Below are positions 2,654-10,559 of a DNA stretch of 64,000 nucleotides, one piece after another. Position 1 is the first letter of the stretch. Every line of letters begins with the position of its first letter. The position numbers and the translations under genes were made by a program. The DNA is from Bacteroidota bacterium (GTDB lineage Bacteria > Bacteroidota > Ignavibacteria > Kryptoniales > JAKASW01), in contig JAKAMG010000011.1 in assembly GCA_021812985.1 (NCBI GenBank), forward strand, positions 17,412-81,411, read 5' to 3'. Below the pieces are notes generated by a model, which was given only the letters and a program-made list of their open reading frames with translations, was not told where the DNA came from and did not search any database.

Positions 2654-2668
2654 TGGCACGGGGGTTGC
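2654..2668 (+). promoter_or_regulatory. Sigma-54 (-24/-12) promoter
   Basis: TGGCAC-GGGGG-TTGC matches the sigma-54 consensus TGGCAC-N5-TTGC, with the GG and GC dinucleotides in the correct 10-bp register. The predicted start near 2680 would give a roughly 75-nt leader for the 105-aa membrane protein gene. An NtrC-family sigma-54 activator is encoded 1.3 kb away on the other strand, which makes local control likely. Confidence 0.75.
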
Positions 2669-2754: not shown

Positions 2755-3072
2755 ATGTTCGCAAACGACGATTTATTCTGGCTGAATATGACGAACCTTT
2801 TTCTCGGCATAGCCACTGTGTATTGCATGGTGGCGGTCGGGTATTCAGCATTGAAGGAGGTTTTCAGCCGATGGAAATTGCGTGATAGAAGGGTACCGGA
2901 GCTGGACGACCACACCTTTGTCGCCGACGGACTCGGGATTACGTTGGCAGACGGAGGAGAGAGGATCGACGCGAGCGATGTTCTTGTGGTTACTGAAGAC
3001 TCTATTGGGACCGCCGGGAAGGCTGATGAGATTACATCCACCCAAGCGAAGAGGGAGGAGAACAGAAAATGA
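2755..3072 (+). CDS. Small single-pass membrane protein of sigma-54 operon
   Basis: A 105-aa protein I do not recognise. Residues about 11-34 (NLFLGIATVYCMVAVGYSAL) form one hydrophobic segment near the N terminus, followed by a basic stretch (SRWKLRDRR) and an acidic soluble tail of about 60 residues. This predicts a membrane anchor with the tail in the cytoplasm. AAAAGGAGG upstream of the ATG is a near-ideal ribosome site. The stop overlaps the start of the GcvH-like gene (ATGA), so the two are translationally coupled and probably act together. Expression is probably sigma-54 dependent. Confidence 0.75.
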   Translation: MFANDDLFWLNMTNLFLGIATVYCMVAVGYSALKEVFSRWKLRDRRVPELDDHTFVADGLGITLADGGERIDASDVLVVTEDSIGTAGKADEITSTQAKREENRK

Positions 3073-4031
3073 GATGCCCCTTCCTGAGGGAAGCGCAGGT
3101 CAAATTCTGCTGCGCCTCCGAGTATAAGAAACTCATAGCACGCTATTTGGACGACACAAGCGACGAGCTTTGCACTTCGCCCGCGTACGTCAATTGCCAA
3201 TCAGCAAGAGATCGGCATGAAGAGCTTCCGAGTCTCGATCACTGCCCCTTTCTTCAGGAGACTCTGTGCCAGTATTGCTCCGTAATGTCGGTCGTTAAAT
3301 ATGTGCCTTACCAGGAGCCGGGCCTGACTCGATGCGGCACATCAGCGCACCGGTATTGCGAGTTGATGATGACGATGCAGAATCCGCGACTCCTCACACC
3401 GCACGACGTCATCGCGCCCGAAATCGACCCGGATGACGAGAACGCGAGCGGCTATTGGATGGTAGATGGAATTCAGACCGTCGGATGGCTCTTCTACTCG
3501 CCCAACCACATGTGGGCCGATGTCGACGAAGACGGAACCTGCCACGTAGGCGCGGACGCATTCATGTCAAAGGTATTGGGGAAGGTGGACGACGTGACAT
3601 TCGCATCATCGGGGGCCGCGCGTAATCCCGCAGTCAGCCTTTCTGTCAATGGCCTCGACCTCCAGATGATTTTCCCTGAAGAGATGCGGATCTATTCCAC
3701 AAATCCGCACCTGAGGTCGAATCCTTCGAAAGTGACATCAGACCCTTACACCCTCGGCTGGCTATTCGAGGGAAAGCTTTCAGGAGTCCCGCGTGGGCTC
3801 ATCCGCGGCAAAGCCTCGAGGGAATGGATGAGGGACGAGATGAGGCGGCTCGTCGAATTCGCTCAGGACTTGTCGGCAAACAAGATGGTGGACGGGATCA
3901 GAATGATGGCAGACGGCGGGATGATCGATGCCGATTTCCTCGGCTCACTGACAAAAGAGGAGCTTCTTCTCCTGTACAACGACTTCTTCTCGCCGCGACA
4001 GTCTTTAAGCGCGGAATTCGGCTCAAGGTGA
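3069..4031 (+). CDS. Cys-rich protein with degenerate GcvH-like (lipoyl-type) domain
   Basis: A 320-aa protein in two parts. Residues 1-100 hold ten cysteines in what looks like a tandem duplication: CPFLRE, C14 C15, then C35-x7-C43; and CPFLQE, C67-x2-C70, then C89-x7-C97. This could bind metal or an Fe-S cluster. Residues about 135-245 match glycine cleavage H protein: LFYSPNHMWADVDEDGT resembles the H-protein opening YTxxHEWV..DGT, and DPYTLGWLFEG resembles DPYGEGWI. At the lipoyl site the expected ESVKA reads LSVNG, so the modified lysine is absent. It is therefore not a functional glycine-cleavage carrier; a ligand-binding or adaptor role is inference. It ends 15 bp from the convergent regulator gene. 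Confidence 0.75.
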   Translation: MRCPFLREAQVKFCCASEYKKLIARYLDDTSDELCTSPAYVNCQSARDRHEELPSLDHCPFLQETLCQYCSVMSVVKYVPYQEPGLTRCGTSAHRYCELMMTMQNPRLLTPHDVIAPEIDPDDENASGYWMVDGIQTVGWLFYSPNHMWADVDEDGTCHVGADAFMSKVLGKVDDVTFASSGAARNPAVSLSVNGLDLQMIFPEEMRIYSTNPHLRSNPSKVTSDPYTLGWLFEGKLSGVPRGLIRGKASREWMRDEMRRLVEFAQDLSANKMVDGIRMMADGGMIDADFLGSLTKEELLLLYNDFFSPRQSLSAEFGSR

Positions 4032-4046
4032 GAGAACAGGACGGAG

Positions 4047-5405
4047 CTACCTCTGTATCTCGTACCTCTTTATTTTTTCGTAGAGGGTGGAACGGTCGAT
4101 ACCAAGAACCAGCGCAGCTTCCTTGATGTTTCCACCGGTGCGCTTTATTGTGGCCTCTATGACCTGCTTCTCGACCGATTGAAGCGGGAGATTGTCCGGA
4201 ACATTCCACGCCGGTCTCCTTATCCCGTTATGTTCAAGAAACGAAAAGTCCTCATCGCTAAGGACGCTGGCTTTGCACGTCACAATCGCCCGCTCCACCG
4301 CATTCTCGAGCTCCCGCACGTTGCCGGGCCAGTTGTAATCGATAAGCATCTTCAGGCCTGATTCCGTGATGTCTTCTATCTCCTTCCCGAGCTCGTGAGA
4401 CAACCTCTCGATGAAGCTCCTGACGAGTAGCGGAACGTCCTCCCTTCTTTCGCGAAGCGGAGGTATCTGAATGTTTATCACGTTTAGTCGGTAGAACAAA
4501 TCGTCTCTGAAGGTCCCGGCCTGGACCGCCTCCGACAGGTCACGATGAGTCGCTGCAATCACCCTAACATCCACCGAAATCTCTTCTGACCCGCCGACGC
4601 GGTAGAAACTCCGCTCCTGCAGTACACGGAGGAGGTCTAGCTGAAGTTTCGGCGAGATGTCTCCAACTTCATCCAGAAATATTGTGCCGCCGTCGGCCAT
4701 CTCGAACTTGCCCTTCTTCTGTGAGACCGCGCCCGTAAACGCTCCCCTCTCATGCCCGAAGAGCTCCGACTCCAGGAGAGTCTCGGCGAGCGCCGCGCAT
4801 GACACACCAACGAACGGTTTTGGAGCCCTGTCACCCGAGAAGTGAATCGCCCGCGCGATGAGTTCTTTACCTGTACCACTCTCTCCCTGTATGAGAACGG
4901 TGCTCTTGAGTCCGGAAATCTCCCTCACTAACTCGAAGATCTCCTGCATCCTGCAGTTCTTGCTGATGATGTCATGGAAGCTGTATTGCTTTGCCAGCTT
5001 CTGTCTCAGTATCGTGTTTTCCCGCTGCAGGTTCTTCACCTTGATTATCCTCTCGACAAGCATGGAGATTTCTTTCGGGTTGCACGGCTTGACTATGTAT
5101 TCGTGCGCCCCCTCCTTCATCGCGGTGATCGCTGTGTCGACAGTCGCGTAGGCCGTTATTATTATGACGGAGGCGTCCGGATGGATTTTCCTTATCTCCA
5201 TCATCGTCTCTATGCCGTCCATCCCGCCCGGCATCTTGAGGTCAACGAAATAAATGGCGTAGTCCTTTTCACGCGCTTTTTCAAGCGCCACGCCGCCGGA
5301 TGCGGCTGAGTCCACTCCGTATCCATCCTCACGCAGCCACGCCGCCAGGGATTCCCGCATGACCTCCTCATCATCCACGACAAGTATTTCCCATTGCGTC
5401 TTCAT
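4047..5405 (-). CDS. Sigma-54-dependent response regulator, NtrC/AtoC family
   Basis: A 452-aa three-domain activator. The receiver domain has the acidic pair D11-D12, phospho-acceptor D55 (FVDLKMPG) and K106. The AAA+ domain has Walker A GESGTGKE (174-181), the sigma-54 contact loop GAFTGA (221-226) and Walker B DEVGD (245-249). The C terminus has a Fis-type helix-turn-helix ([24 protein letters not shown]). All key residues are present, so it should be an active enhancer-binding protein. Its start overlaps the archaemetzincin stop by ATGA and it is last in the operon kinase-archaemetzincin-regulator. The facing sigma-54 promoter at 2654 is its most obvious target. Confidence 0.93.
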
Positions 5406-5983
5406 CCGATCATCTCCGGTACTGTTGTCCTCTTTACCTGCCTCTTGGCCTTAGCAATTTCCTCGTCCAGCAGCTTCCAGCAGCTGGCGCAAAAGTCCTC
5501 GGACTTCAAATCAACCTGAACGATCTCCGTCGAAAGCGACATCAGACACGACCTGTCACCGCAGTGAACAAGACCGAACGTGTGCCCGAGTTCATGCGCA
5601 ATTTCTTTCCTTGCCCTCCGCATTTCGACTTCTTTGTTCGGCCTCAACCCGTAAAAAGCCTGGCCCAGTCTGGCGAGAGAGATTATCGCGGTCCTGCCAC
5701 AGAGCTGTGCCTGACCATACACGAATGTGATCATCGGAATGTAGAGGTCACATCCCGTAACTCCGACAAATCTGGTCGCATCGGGCGGCGTCACGCTGGA
5801 AAGATTCCGAAGTATGACAGTCGAGCTGTACTGTCCCCGCCGCGCGTCAAACGCGTAATCCGGCTCGGGAAATGACGTGGACACCTCAGAATCGAACCCG
5901 AACAGCTCGCCGACATGCCTCGCCAACATGCTTAGCGTCTCACCATTTACCGCGCCGATCGGGGATAAATAGATTCTGCTCAT
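5402..5983 (-). CDS. Archaemetzincin-family zinc metalloprotease
   Basis: A 193-aa protein with the metzincin zinc site HELGHTFGLVH (H130, E131, H134, H140). It is followed by the archaemetzincin extra cysteines C141, C146, C164 and C167 (HCGDRSCLM and FCASC), which in the family bind a second zinc. No signal peptide is seen, so it should be cytoplasmic. The substrate is unknown. It lies between a histidine kinase and its presumed response regulator, with an ATGA overlap into the latter. Placement inside a two-component operon suggests a signalling or proteolytic-control role, which is inference. The ribosome site before the ATG is weak. Confidence 0.88.
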   Translation of the reverse strand: MSRIYLSPIGAVNGETLSMLARHVGELFGFDSEVSTSFPEPDYAFDARRGQYSSTVILRNLSSVTPPDATRFVGVTGCDLYIPMITFVYGQAQLCGRTAIISLARLGQAFYGLRPNKEVEMRRARKEIAHELGHTFGLVHCGDRSCLMSLSTEIVQVDLKSEDFCASCWKLLDEEIAKAKRQVKRTTVPEMIG

Positions 5984-6077: not shown

Positions 6078-7700
6078 TTATGCTCCACCCTCGGCTCCTT
6101 CAGCTGAGGCGATCTTCTGCGGCAGCGTCTTTCTGATGGGCACAGTCACCTTGAACCTCGTCCCTTTACCCAATTCGCTCGTCACCTCTATGTCTCCACC
6201 ATGTGCATCAACGATCCCATACACTACCGACAGTCCCAACCCAACCCCCTTCGCGTCCCCCTTCGTGGTGAAGAAAGGATCGAAAATCCTGGGAAGTATT
6301 TCCGGCGGTATCCCATCGCCGGTATCGGCGATCTCGACAACCACCGATTCCCCTTCCTGCCTTGTCGAGATTGATATCGTTCCCTGGCCCTTTGCATGAC
6401 ACGCATCGGCTCCGTTCATTACGAGATTCACAATCACCTGTTGCATCTGGTAACCGTCGCATTCCGCAGGGGGTAGTGTCTCCGAGAGATGGAGCTCGAG
6501 AATTATATTCCCAAGCTCGAGCCGGTGCCTAAGTATAAGGAGACTGTTTCTGATTATGACATTCAGGTCTGCGGTCGAGCTCTGAGGCTTTGGCCGCCTC
6601 GAGAACGCGAGGAGGTCGGAGACAATCCGCCCGACCCTCGTCGTCTCGTCGATTATCTGGCCGACATATTTCCTCACTTCCTTTACCCGTTCTCCAGGAA
6701 TCCCATCGTCTTTCACAATTCTGTCGAGTAACATCGCGAGGTTGAGGACGCCGGAGATCGGATTATTTATCTCATGCGCTACAGTCGCTGAAAGCTGGCC
6801 GAGGGACGCGAGCCTGTCGCTCTGGAGAAGTTTCTGGTGCGCCACTTCAAGCTGCTTCGTCCTCTCTTTCACCTTCCGCTCAAGGTCCTGCGTTGCCTGG
6901 TTGAGCTCCACCATGGCCCTGTTCAGACGTTCGCTCATGACGTTGAACTCATGCGCGAGCTCGGCAAGTTCGGAGCTGGAACTTATCTCGACGACGTGAT
7001 CGAGCTGCATGCGGCTCACGGCCCTCGCCCCTGCTATAAGCTGATTTATGGGTTTGTCAACGAACCGGCGTGTGAAGAAGACTATGAAAAGGCCAATGAG
7101 CACTATCTGAATTCCGGTAACCGCGAAGACTTCAGCCCTCGCGTTTGAAAGTTCCGCGTCGAGAGGGCCAAGGTCAAAAGCGACATCGAGAACTCCAAGT
7201 ACGGTCGTCGTCTTGGGATGTGCATGGCAGGGAGCGTCACTGCATGAGGGCTCATTATAGATAGGGGTGATCATAGCAAGCTGCCTCCCTCCGGCCGATC
7301 TGAAGATCCTGGAGCGGGAGGACGCGTCGACGTTCACGAGCGGTTGCGAGGAGAAGTGACACATGGCGCACGACTCGGCCTTCTTGTCGACCTGCCTTTC
7401 GTCGGTGGCTTTCGTCGAGAACATCACCTTCCCCTCTTTATTGAAGATCCTTATCCTGCTTATCCCGGGATTTGCCGCGATCGTTTGCATCACGGAATAC
7501 GCGGCGGACCTGTCGTCCGCCAGCATGGCATGCCACGTCGCGCTTGTGATTCCCATTGAGAGCTGGTCAGCCCCAGTGATCATCGCCTGAAGAATCTGAC
7601 GCTCCTGATTCCGCAGGCTGATGTACCCCGAAATACCCGAGACGACCATGACGATGATCGTGAGGGAGATGATTATCTGAAGAGAAAGCCGCTTCGGCAC
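6078..7700 (-). CDS. Membrane sensor histidine kinase with c-type-haem-like periplasmic motifs
   Basis: A 540-aa sensor. TM1 spans about 7-27 and TM2 about 190-210, bounding a 160-residue periplasmic domain, then HAMP (211-263) and a coiled coil. The HisKA H-box is AHEINNP with H309. The HATPase domain contains ADTGDGIPPEI, DPFFTTK and GVGLGLSVV. The periplasmic domain holds CAMCH (111-115), a canonical CxxCH haem c site, and CSDAPCH (153-159), a CxxxxCH variant. This suggests covalent haem and sensing of redox state or a gas. The start is GTG at 7700; the in-frame context offers no better ATG, and AGGTG lies close upstream. It heads the operon with archaemetzincin and the sigma-54 regulator. 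Confidence 0.9.
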   Translation of the reverse strand: MPKRLSLQIIISLTIIVMVVSGISGYISLRNQERQILQAMITGADQLSMGITSATWHAMLADDRSAAYSVMQTIAANPGISRIRIFNKEGKVMFSTKATDERQVDKKAESCAMCHFSSQPLVNVDASSRSRIFRSAGGRQLAMITPIYNEPSCSDAPCHAHPKTTTVLGVLDVAFDLGPLDAELSNARAEVFAVTGIQIVLIGLFIVFFTRRFVDKPINQLIAGARAVSRMQLDHVVEISSSSELAELAHEFNVMSERLNRAMVELNQATQDLERKVKERTKQLEVAHQKLLQSDRLASLGQLSATVAHEINNPISGVLNLAMLLDRIVKDDGIPGERVKEVRKYVGQIIDETTRVGRIVSDLLAFSRRPKPQSSTADLNVIIRNSLLILRHRLELGNIILELHLSETLPPAECDGYQMQQVIVNLVMNGADACHAKGQGTISISTRQEGESVVVEIADTGDGIPPEILPRIFDPFFTTKGDAKGVGLGLSVVYGIVDAHGGDIEVTSELGKGTRFKVTVPIRKTLPQKIASAEGAEGGA

Positions 7701-7864
7701 GACACCTGACCTGCTTTCTGAATATCATTTTGCCCCGTTAAGGGGAAACAATTCACTGGCGAGGTGCTACGGCATACCGGCTGGCGCTTTATGCCAACCC
7801 ACTGACAACGGTAAAATATGGAGGGAAGATTAGAGATTCAATTCCGGAAGGGGGCGTAAGAGGA

Positions 7865-7890
7865 GTGGCCGCCGCGTTAACGGCGGCCAC
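7865..7890 (-). terminator. Hairpin after the sugar-acid operon
   Basis: GTGGCCGCCG-CGTTAA-CGGCGGCCAC is a perfect 10-bp stem with a 6-nt loop, starting 16 bp after the stop of the PfkB kinase gene on the minus strand. No clear T tract follows, so it may be a weak terminator or an mRNA 3' end stabiliser. Confidence 0.5.
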
Positions 7891-7906
7891 CAGAAGGAAG
7901 CTACAA

Positions 7907-8989
7907 TTATCTTTGGATTCTCGCCGACCCCCCCTTGGCGAATGAGCGGACCTGGTCGAGAGTGGCCATCGTGGTGTCACCGGGAAAAGTTGTCAGGAGC
8001 GCACCATGTGCCCAACCGAGCTTTACCGACTCTTCGGGACTCTCTCCGGAGAGGAGACCGTAGAAGAAGCCCGACGCGAAACCGTCGCCTCCTCCGACCC
8101 TGTCCAGTACGTTCAGGTCGGCCGTCGGCGAGGTGTAAGTCTTCCCGTTCACCCACGCTACTGCCCCCCAACCGTGGTGGTTCGTCGAATGAACTTCGCG
8201 AAGCGTCGTCGCAACAACCTTGACATGGGGGTGCAGAGCCACTACCTTATCGATCATTCCAAAGAAGGTGCTGGGGTCGAGCTTCGATTTGGCCGCAACT
8301 TCAGGTCCGGGGACACCGAGCCCCTTCTGAAGGTCCTCTTCGTTTCCGACAAGGACGTCTACGTTCTCGACAATTCGCGAGATGACCTCGGCTGCTTTCT
8401 TCTGTCCGCCCCAGATATTCCAGAGTTTCTCCCTGAAGTTCAGGTCGAAGCTCACTACGGCCCCCGCCTTCTTGGCAGCCTTCATCCCTTCTATTATTAG
8501 CTCGCCAGTTGTCTCGGAAAGTGCCGCGAAGATTCCTCCGCTGTGAAACCATCTGACCCCGCCGCCGAATATCGCGTCCCAATCAAAGTCGCCCGGCTTG
8601 AGCTGTGCCGCGGCCTCGTGCGACCTGTTGTAGAAAACGACCGGGGGTCTTATCCCGTGCCCCATGTCGCTGTAGACAGTGGCCATGTTGGGACCGTTGA
8701 CGCCGTTGTGTTTGAACCTCCTGTAAAAGGGCTTCACGCCCATAGCCCTCACCCGCTCAGCAATCATATCGCCGATCGGATAATCGACCAGGGCTGAGAC
8801 TATTCCGGTATCGAGCTGGAAACAGTCGGCAAGGTTCGCCGCAACGTTAAACTCGCCGCCGCTGACATGGATTTTGCACTCTGTGGCCTTGCGAAATGGG
8901 ATTATGCCCGGATCAAGCCTGTGAACAAGCGCTCCCAGTGACAGGAAATCAAGCGCCCCCTTCGCAGGAATATTCAATTCATTTTTCAT
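7907..8989 (-). CDS. PfkB-family sugar kinase, probably 2-keto-3-deoxygluconate kinase
   Basis: A 360-aa ribokinase-fold enzyme. The substrate-side motif is SGGEFNVAANLA, and the C-terminal catalytic/anion-hole motif is DRVGGGDGFASG, with the Asp of GGGD as general base. The length and the FYNRSHEAA block fit KdgK-type kinases, which phosphorylate 2-dehydro-3-deoxy-D-gluconate, but other sugar acids cannot be excluded. It is the last gene of a three-gene minus-strand run after a LarA-type epimerase and 6-phosphogluconate dehydrogenase. That context supports sugar-acid catabolism. Confidence 0.8.
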   Translation of the reverse strand: MKNELNIPAKGALDFLSLGALVHRLDPGIIPFRKATECKIHVSGGEFNVAANLADCFQLDTGIVSALVDYPIGDMIAERVRAMGVKPFYRRFKHNGVNGPNMATVYSDMGHGIRPPVVFYNRSHEAAAQLKPGDFDWDAIFGGGVRWFHSGGIFAALSETTGELIIEGMKAAKKAGAVVSFDLNFREKLWNIWGGQKKAAEVISRIVENVDVLVGNEEDLQKGLGVPGPEVAAKSKLDPSTFFGMIDKVVALHPHVKVVATTLREVHSTNHHGWGAVAWVNGKTYTSPTADLNVLDRVGGGDGFASGFFYGLLSGESPEESVKLGWAHGALLTTFPGDTTMATLDQVRSFAKGGSARIQR

Positions 8990-9042
8990 TTTAAGTGTTC
9001 CCTTGAGTTATCTCGACAGATTCATTCGGTTGATGCAATCAT

Positions 9043-9089
9043 GGAACGCCGATGGACGCGAATGCTGCGGGCGATATCACCGGCGTTCC
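9043..9089. repeat. Inverted repeat between gnd and the PfkB kinase gene
   Basis: GGAACGCCG at 9043-9051 is perfectly complementary to CGGCGTTCC at 9081-9089, with a 29-nt loop. It lies in the 115-bp gap inside the operon and could be an mRNA processing or stabilising hairpin, or an internal operator. Confidence 0.45.
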
Positions 9090-9104
9090 GCATTCAATGC
9101 TCTT

Positions 9105-10559
9105 TCACACGAGGTAAGTGGAGGAAGCCGTGTCGCCTCCGCGACCGGTCCAGTTTGTATGGAAGAATTCTCCGCGGGGTTTGTCGACGCGTTCGTACTG
9201 GTGCGCGCCGAAGTAGTCGCGTTGGGCCTGCAACAAGTTCGCAGGGAGCCGCGAGTTCCTGTAACCGTCGAAGTAGTTCAAGGCAGTCGAGAAAGCCGGC
9301 ACCCAGATTCCGTTCAGCACCGCCGTCGAAATGACTCTCCGCCACGCCTCCTGCGACTCTTCCATCTTCTCCCTGAAGAAAGGATCGAGGAGAAGGTTGC
9401 TGAGGTTCGGATTTTTGTCGAATGCCTCCTTGATCTTTCCAAGGAAGACGCTTCTGATTATGCAGCCGCCTCTCCAGAGAAGGGCTATGCCGCCGTAATT
9501 CAGATTCCACTTGTACTCCTCGGCCGCCGCCCTGAGCAGCGTGAAACCCTGGGCGTATGACACGATCTTCGATGCGTACAAAGCCTTCTCGAGGTCGTGC
9601 AGGAAGGCGTTCCTGTCCCCCTTGAAAGAAGGCTTCGGGCCGTGAAGAATTTTCGAGGCTTCGACGCGCTCCTCCTTGATCGCGGAAAGACACCTCCCGT
9701 ATACCGCCTCACTGATGAGAGTCAGCGGGATTCCGAGGTCGAGCGACGTCACGCTCGTCCACTTGCCTGTCCCCTTCTGACCAGCCGTGTCGAGTATCTT
9801 GTCCACTAGAGGACCGCCGTCAGCATCCTTATAAGCCAGAATATCACGCGTTATTTCGATGAGATAACTGTTCAGATCGCGCGTGTTCCACTCCTTGAAC
9901 ACATCGTGCATTTCGCCCGCAGTCATACCGAGAAGTTCCTTCATGATCTGGTACGCCTCAGTAATCAGCTGCATGTCCCCGTACTCGATTCCGTTGTGTA
10001 CCATCTTCACGAAATGGCCGGCGCCGTCGCTCCCGACCCAATCGCAGCAGGGCGTGCCATCTTCGACCTTCGCCGAGATCGCCTGGAATATCGGCTTCAC
10101 GTGCGGCCAGGCGCTGGGCGAACCGCCGGGCATTATTGAAGGGCCCTTCAACGCCCCTTCCTCACCACCAGAAACGCCGGTGCCAATGTACTGGAGCCCC
10201 TTGCTCTCAAGGTATTTCGTCCTCCTTATCGTGTCGGGGTAATGTGAGTTTCCTCCGTCGATCACGATATCTCCTTTGTCAAGATGAGGTATGAGAAGCT
10301 CGATGAATTCATCCACCGGCTTGCCGGCCTTCACCATGAGCATTATCCTCCGAGGCGTCTTGAGCGCGGAGACGAGTTCCTGGATCGAGGTCGCGCCTAT
10401 TATCTTCTTCCCCTTCCCGCGCCCCTCCACAAAATGAGTGACCTTCTCGACCGTGCGATTGAATACTGCGACCGTGAACCCCCTGCTCTCCATATTCAGC
10501 ACTAGATTCTCGCCCATGACCGCGAGCCCGATTAATCCGATATCTGCTTTCTGCGACAT
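9105..10559 (-). CDS. gnd: 6-phosphogluconate dehydrogenase, decarboxylating
   Basis: Converts 6-phosphogluconate to ribulose 5-phosphate with NADP(+) or NAD(+), in the oxidative pentose phosphate pathway. The track ORF is extended by 36 residues; I start at MSQKADIGLIG (10559), preceded by GGGAAG, giving 484 aa, close to the usual 470-480. Visible motifs are the Rossmann GLAVMGENL, the substrate-binding GVSGGEEGA, GTGKWTS and the C-terminal LLQAQRDYFGAHQYER with FHTNW. It lies 73 bp after the LarA-type gene. No zwf or edd is in the window, so the source of the substrate is not shown. Confidence 0.95.
   Translation of the reverse strand: MSQKADIGLIGLAVMGENLVLNMESRGFTVAVFNRTVEKVTHFVEGRGKGKKIIGATSIQELVSALKTPRRIMLMVKAGKPVDEFIELLIPHLDKGDIVIDGGNSHYPDTIRRTKYLESKGLQYIGTGVSGGEEGALKGPSIMPGGSPSAWPHVKPIFQAISAKVEDGTPCCDWVGSDGAGHFVKMVHNGIEYGDMQLITEAYQIMKELLGMTAGEMHDVFKEWNTRDLNSYLIEITRDILAYKDADGGPLVDKILDTAGQKGTGKWTSVTSLDLGIPLTLISEAVYGRCLSAIKEERVEASKILHGPKPSFKGDRNAFLHDLEKALYASKIVSYAQGFTLLRAAAEEYKWNLNYGGIALLWRGGCIIRSVFLGKIKEAFDKNPNLSNLLLDPFFREKMEESQEAWRRVISTAVLNGIWVPAFSTALNYFDGYRNSRLPANLLQAQRDYFGAHQYERVDKPRGEFFHTNWTGRGGDTASSTYLV

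Follow-up and report, generated by a model that had tools for sequence, protein, structure and literature searches.

The locus examined here raises the question of what a protein with the fold of the glycine-cleavage H protein (GcvH) may do when the lysine that carries lipoate is missing. In the window, which is the entire 64,000-nucleotide stretch of DNA analysed, the protein termed GcvH1 is encoded at positions 3069..4031 of the + strand. It is 320 aa long with an ATG start, and comprises a Cys-rich domain, a Lys-less GcvH-fold domain and a C-terminal extension. A sequence-only reading had proposed that the H-protein landmarks and fold are retained, that the lipoyl Lys is replaced by Asn, and that the protein has acquired a role other than glycine cleavage.

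The GcvH-like domain and its lipoyl site

The GcvH-like domain spans residues 141-239 (3489..3785, + strand) and is defined by Pfam, PDB sequence and structure matches. Its residues 142-238 match Pfam GCV_H with 27.2 bits (cut-off 22.2, E 3.9e-6), and the E. coli H-protein, for which a structure has been solved, is found by PDB sequence search with an E of 2e-6. A profile of 16 GcvH1 orthologs matches 30 canonical GcvH sequences at E 8e-10. Template-free AF2 modelling of GcvH1 gave low overall confidence (pLDDT 42), since only five sequences were usable; full-length and domain-only models were both of low confidence and were applied only to turn placement and fold matching. The top 16 PDB matches of the GcvH1 model are H-proteins or GcvH-like proteins throughout, with E from 9.5e-5 and target-normalised TM of up to 0.61. 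The landmarks PNHMWADVDEDGT and DPYTLGWLFEG are present, together with the strip LSVNG at the lipoyl position, and the claim of a retained H-protein fold is thus borne out by all three kinds of match.

The codons of N194-G195 (3648..3653, + strand) correspond, by alignment and AF2 secondary structure, to the hairpin turn where canonical GcvH bears the lipoyl Lys, and in the GcvH1 model this predicted turn lies between strands 188-193 and 196-201. The hairpin could not be placed by hhalign alone, which leaves gaps in that stretch. In an alignment of the 30 canonical GcvH and 44 GcvH-like domains, the lipoyl Lys column falls opposite G195, with N194 one residue earlier. The proposal that Asn takes the place of Lys on the hairpin therefore holds as regards the predicted turn, and is offset by at most one residue as regards the Lys column itself. 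GcvH1 has no Lys between K172 and K221 (residues 173-220), so that no neighbouring Lys could stand in, and at residue 194 the 16 orthologs carry N (7), G (4), R (2), H (2) or Q (1), and Lys in none. The inability of GcvH1 to carry lipoate, as far as sequence can establish it, is confirmed, and the lipoyl Lys appears from these orthologs to be lost across the whole GcvH1 family and not in a one-off event. The suggested conservation of the Asn was not upheld; with residue 194 varying in this way, a special role of Asn is unsupported, and Asn as a functional substitute for Lys is ruled out.

Conserved residues and the Cys-rich domain

The Cys-rich domain occupies residues 1-99 (3069..3365, + strand). 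Eight Cys (3, 14, 35, 43, 59, 70, 89 and 97) and His94 are invariant in the 16 orthologs, and the Cys-rich N terminus of the sequence-only reading is supported. Other invariant residues are N146, H147 and W149 (as N146-H147-x-W149), G161, D163, N212, R216, P226, G230 and W231, as well as a C-terminal DGG...FF signature. What is conserved in the GcvH1 sequences is thus the scaffold and the Cys domain, and not the Asn. Searches of Pfam and PDB with the Cys domain returned no credible relative, and among 297 genomes of the phylum the domain is confined to the 11 that bear GcvH1.

Neighbouring genes in the window

The start of GcvH1 overlaps the stop of an upstream ORF of 105 aa (2755..3072, + strand). 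Its product is a small membrane protein that ends in a conserved GLGxTxADGG tail and has, by eye, one predicted helix; it has no Pfam match, and its gene lies upstream of GcvH1 in most relatives. A candidate sigma-54 promoter core, TGGCACGGGGGTTGC, is found at 2654..2668 (+ strand), 101 bp upstream of the small membrane protein start, and is the sole exact match to TGGCACNNNNNTTGC in the window, where 0.10 would be expected. Weaker versions of this core are present upstream of the same gene at two related loci (L037 and L038); none was found at L039/L040 or in most other relatives, and the core is unconserved at high stringency.

Downstream, on the - strand, lie three genes. An NtrC-type sigma-54 response regulator (4047..5405) has Pfam Response_reg, Sigma54_activat and HTH_8 matches. 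It is followed by an archaemetzincin-family metalloprotease gene (5402..5983; Pfam Peptidase_M54, and NCBIfam archmetzin above cut-off) and by a membrane histidine kinase (6078..7700; Pfam HATPase_c, HisKA and HAMP) with the heme-type motifs CAMCH (111-115) and CSDAPCH (153-159) in its sensor region. Archaemetzincin-family genes consistently accompany the kinase and regulator genes, as at L042:16327-16872. Histidine kinases sharing the CxxCH and CxxxxCH sensor region occur in all three kinds of locus described below (the window; L042:13300-14928; L081:11303-13153), and are likely, from these motifs, to be c-type heme sensors.

A GCV_T-domain gene at 1301-2404 was considered as a sign of a glycine-cleavage cluster, and this was ruled out. 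It bears, by eye, the YgfZ signature KGCYVGQE and is retained as a neighbour throughout the genus, and its product is probably YgfZ and no glycine cleavage T protein. GcvH1 is unlinked to glycine cleavage genes, its neighbours being qrc genes or regulators, and the suggestion of a role other than glycine cleavage is supported. In the neighbourhood viewed no shdr cluster genes were seen. Membrane topology at the locus was read by eye; the lack of an export signal, and positively charged residues following the anchors, suggest that GcvH1 is cytoplasmic.

The Qrc operon in relatives

In relatives, GcvH1 opens an operon in which it is followed by qrcABCD, encoding a menaquinone reductase, and then by a second Lys-less GcvH-like gene, gcvH2, the product of which carries an N-terminal hydrophobic helix. 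This operon faces that of the sigma-54 regulator, archaemetzincin and heme-motif histidine kinase. At one such locus, L043, QrcA is matched above cut-off (183.9 bits; cut-off 180), QrcB and QrcC below it (259 against 440 and 352.6 against 400 bits), and QrcD at full length just below it (566.8 against 570 bits). In 10 genomes of the phylum QrcD matches NF041784 at full length with 553-589 bits, in six of them above the cut-off of 570. Qrc-type menaquinone reductase operons of this Bacteroidota class were noted at L043, L048, L050, L051 and L053.

The survey covered 297 Bacteroidota genomes, mostly draft assemblies from this one phylum. GcvH1 is present in all 10 genomes with QrcD, and the window genome is the only one with GcvH1 and without QrcD (Fisher value for co-occurrence 9e-18, with shared ancestry ignored). 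Within the genus, an ortholog of the kinase is found in all eight genomes with GcvH1, both Qrc-less ones included, and is missing from the other five, which lack GcvH1.

Loss of Qrc in the window genome and in G303

Where relatives have qrcABCD and gcvH2 (about 6 kb), the window has a junction of 15 bp (4032..4046), as seen by comparison with L038-L040, L043, L076 and others. No QrcB or QrcD ortholog was found elsewhere in the window genome, which is 98.95% complete; its best QrcD match is an Hmc-like gene, 28% identical. A misjoin at 4031/4047 is unlikely. In a second genome, G303 (L075, G303:C23), qrcD and gcvH2 are present at about 7655-9189 as fragments with stops and deletions, and these remnants adjoin an intact GcvH1 of 339 aa; judged from these fragments, the Qrc operon of G303 is in the course of decaying. 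Qrc seems to have been lost independently in the two genomes, because the nearest relatives of each retain it.

Lineage-specific codon changes in GcvH1 number 12 nonsynonymous to 19 synonymous in G303, and 12 to 31 or 17 to 33 in the window, depending on the comparison used. These counts mix periods before and after the qrc deletion, and the excess of synonymous changes therefore suggests purifying selection on GcvH1 during at least much of that time. The GcvH1 branch of the window is 0.44, as against 0.12 and 0.19 in sisters, and branch ratios of the window to the genome G306 are 3.5 for GcvH1, 3.8 for the regulator and 3.3 for the metzincin, as against 1.8 for flanking genes. In both Qrc-less lineages these three genes have evolved faster, relative to sisters, than flanking genes, which is expected if their job has been partly lost. 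The Qrc-less locus is retained, perhaps under looser constraint.

The wider family of GcvH-like proteins

Two further GcvH-like genes in the window genome flank HmcB/HmcC-like FeS and NrfD genes, again with a kinase, regulator and metzincin. Other families of the class have GcvH-like domains in fusions, preceded by a membrane helix and a receiver domain, with NrfD and FeS genes adjoining. Such receiver fusions, of about 385 aa, were observed at L081, L082, L083, L084, L086 and L087, where genes for FeS proteins, NrfD, a 13-heme cytochrome and a kinase adjoin; an additional receiver protein (about 265 aa), with a weak GcvH match, is often found beside these fusions. In a tree of the 30 canonical GcvH and 44 GcvH-like domains, one branch (support 100/99) splits all 44 from the canonical sequences, and 43 of the 44 have D for T in the GITDF motif. 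Hmc-associated GcvH-like proteins form no single clade, several being on long branches. Lys is present at the lipoyl column in 4/44 domains, all outside the GcvH1 group and lacking the ExVK context, so that modification of these paralogs is formally conceivable.

The three arrangements have in common an NrfD-type membrane subunit with its ferredoxin subunit, as well as a regulator and a heme-motif kinase. A speculative reading, which we hold only tentatively, is that the GcvH fold without lipoate serves NrfD-type quinone complexes as a dedicated adaptor domain, occurring as a Cys-domain fusion with Qrc, as a membrane-anchored pair with Hmc-like modules, and as a receiver-domain fusion with multiheme modules.

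Possible functions of GcvH1

The suggestion that GcvH1 works as an H protein in glycine cleavage, or did so until recent damage, draws on its fold and can be rejected with near certainty. Against it are the absence of Lys in all 16 orthologs and a score of 28 bits against TIGR00527, far from the cut-off of 115.85. A damaged gcvH is likewise ruled out, because Lys is absent family-wide and a canonical GcvH with EAVK is encoded separately in the same genome (contig C56); canonical GcvH was found in 61/61 phylum genomes searched. It is also quite improbable that the Cys-rich domain serves as an electron carrier, with thiol or Fe-S chemistry replacing that of lipoate on the GcvH fold. The invariance of eight Cys and one His would fit such a carrier, but the domain has no relative with a known cofactor, and GcvH-like paralogs of the same lineage manage without it.

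The reading towards which we lean, although at somewhat less than even confidence, is that GcvH1 is a cytoplasmic, lipoate-free accessory or signalling adaptor with a GcvH fold, belonging to the locus of a Qrc-type (NrfD-type quinone) complex. It is consistent with the presence of GcvH1 in every QrcD genome and at the head of the qrc operon, with the facing kinase and regulator pair, the former found in exactly those 8/13 genus genomes that have GcvH1, and with the Hmc-like FeS/NrfD genes, kinase and regulator that adjoin GcvH-like genes in the same lineage. It also fits the intact state of GcvH1, and its excess of synonymous over nonsynonymous changes, in both Qrc-less genomes. The link to signalling is, however, read from neighbourhood and fusions, and co-retention of kinase and GcvH1, which are neighbours, may reflect shared inheritance. 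A possible but less probable alternative gives GcvH1 and GcvH2 no part in signalling and makes them subunits of Qrc itself, with a structural or assembly function on the cytoplasmic side of QrcD; GcvH1 of the window would then be a leftover. Co-occurrence with QrcD and operon position favour a subunit or assembly role, as do the membrane-anchored GcvH-like gene that closes the operon and the faster evolution after Qrc loss, which also counts against an adaptor. The characterised Desulfovibrio-type Qrc, however, is described with four subunits, A-D (PMC13059093), and GcvH1 is intact in two Qrc-less genomes, one of them with qrcD and gcvH2 already disrupted. Receiver-domain fusions of relatives, and the survival of GcvH1 together with kinase and regulator where Qrc has been lost, incline us to the adaptor. 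That GcvH1 of the window genome was orphaned recently, is being lost and has no present function is unlikely; the loss of the rest of its operon and its long branch would be accounted for, but the ORF is full-length with all eight Cys retained, synonymous changes predominate, and kinase and regulator persist.

If GcvH1 is an adaptor, its GcvH fold would act as a docking domain, and the small membrane protein, whose translation immediately precedes that of GcvH1, might tether it to the inner side of the membrane, while the Cys domain may bind a metal or Fe-S cluster. GcvH1 would then connect the NrfD-type quinone subunit to the kinase and regulator pair, and expression or activity of the complex could thereby be matched to electron supply. 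In the window genome, from which Qrc has gone, the adaptor and regulators would be left, perhaps serving the surviving Hmc-like complex and perhaps slowly loosening.

Significance and comparison with known systems

The locus provides an example of the reuse of a metabolic carrier fold, stripped of its cofactor, beside respiratory membrane complexes. It also places Qrc-type menaquinone reductases in a Bacteroidota class, whereas a 2021 survey had QrcD confined to Deltaproteobacteria (PMC8076601). An adaptor role, if true, would offer the bacterium a way to sense how a quinone-reducing complex is working, and an adaptor domain in three arrangements would imply a direct readout from such membrane complexes to two-component systems; the Qrc-less genomes represent a natural experiment in which regulator and enzyme are parted. 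No earlier description of GcvH-like proteins with NrfD, Qrc or response regulators was found in the literature searched, which is weak evidence of novelty.

Canonical GcvH (PF01597 / TIGR00527) shares with GcvH1 its fold and the landmark residues HxW, G, P and GW. GcvH1 differs in having no lipoyl Lys or ExVK context, in D for T in GITDF, in its extra Cys domain and C-terminal extension, and in falling on the other side of the tree. The GcvH-related protein NF045810 of Desulfobacterota is a named GcvH relative that, like GcvH1, stands apart from glycine cleavage, but matches weakly (GcvH1 14.4 bits, a 235-aa paralog 36.6; cut-off 150). The operon of relatives resembles the QrcABCD menaquinone reductase of Desulfobacterota in having all four subunits (PMC13059093, PMC8076601), and differs in its two additional GcvH-like genes, its small membrane protein gene and its host, whereas all four qrc genes are missing from the window genome. 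LbpA of the sHdr sulfur-oxidation pathway is, like GcvH1, a GcvH-like protein outside glycine cleavage with redox-complex genes adjoining, but its lipoyl Lys, absent from GcvH1, is kept in 95/95 aligned sequences (PMC6067878).
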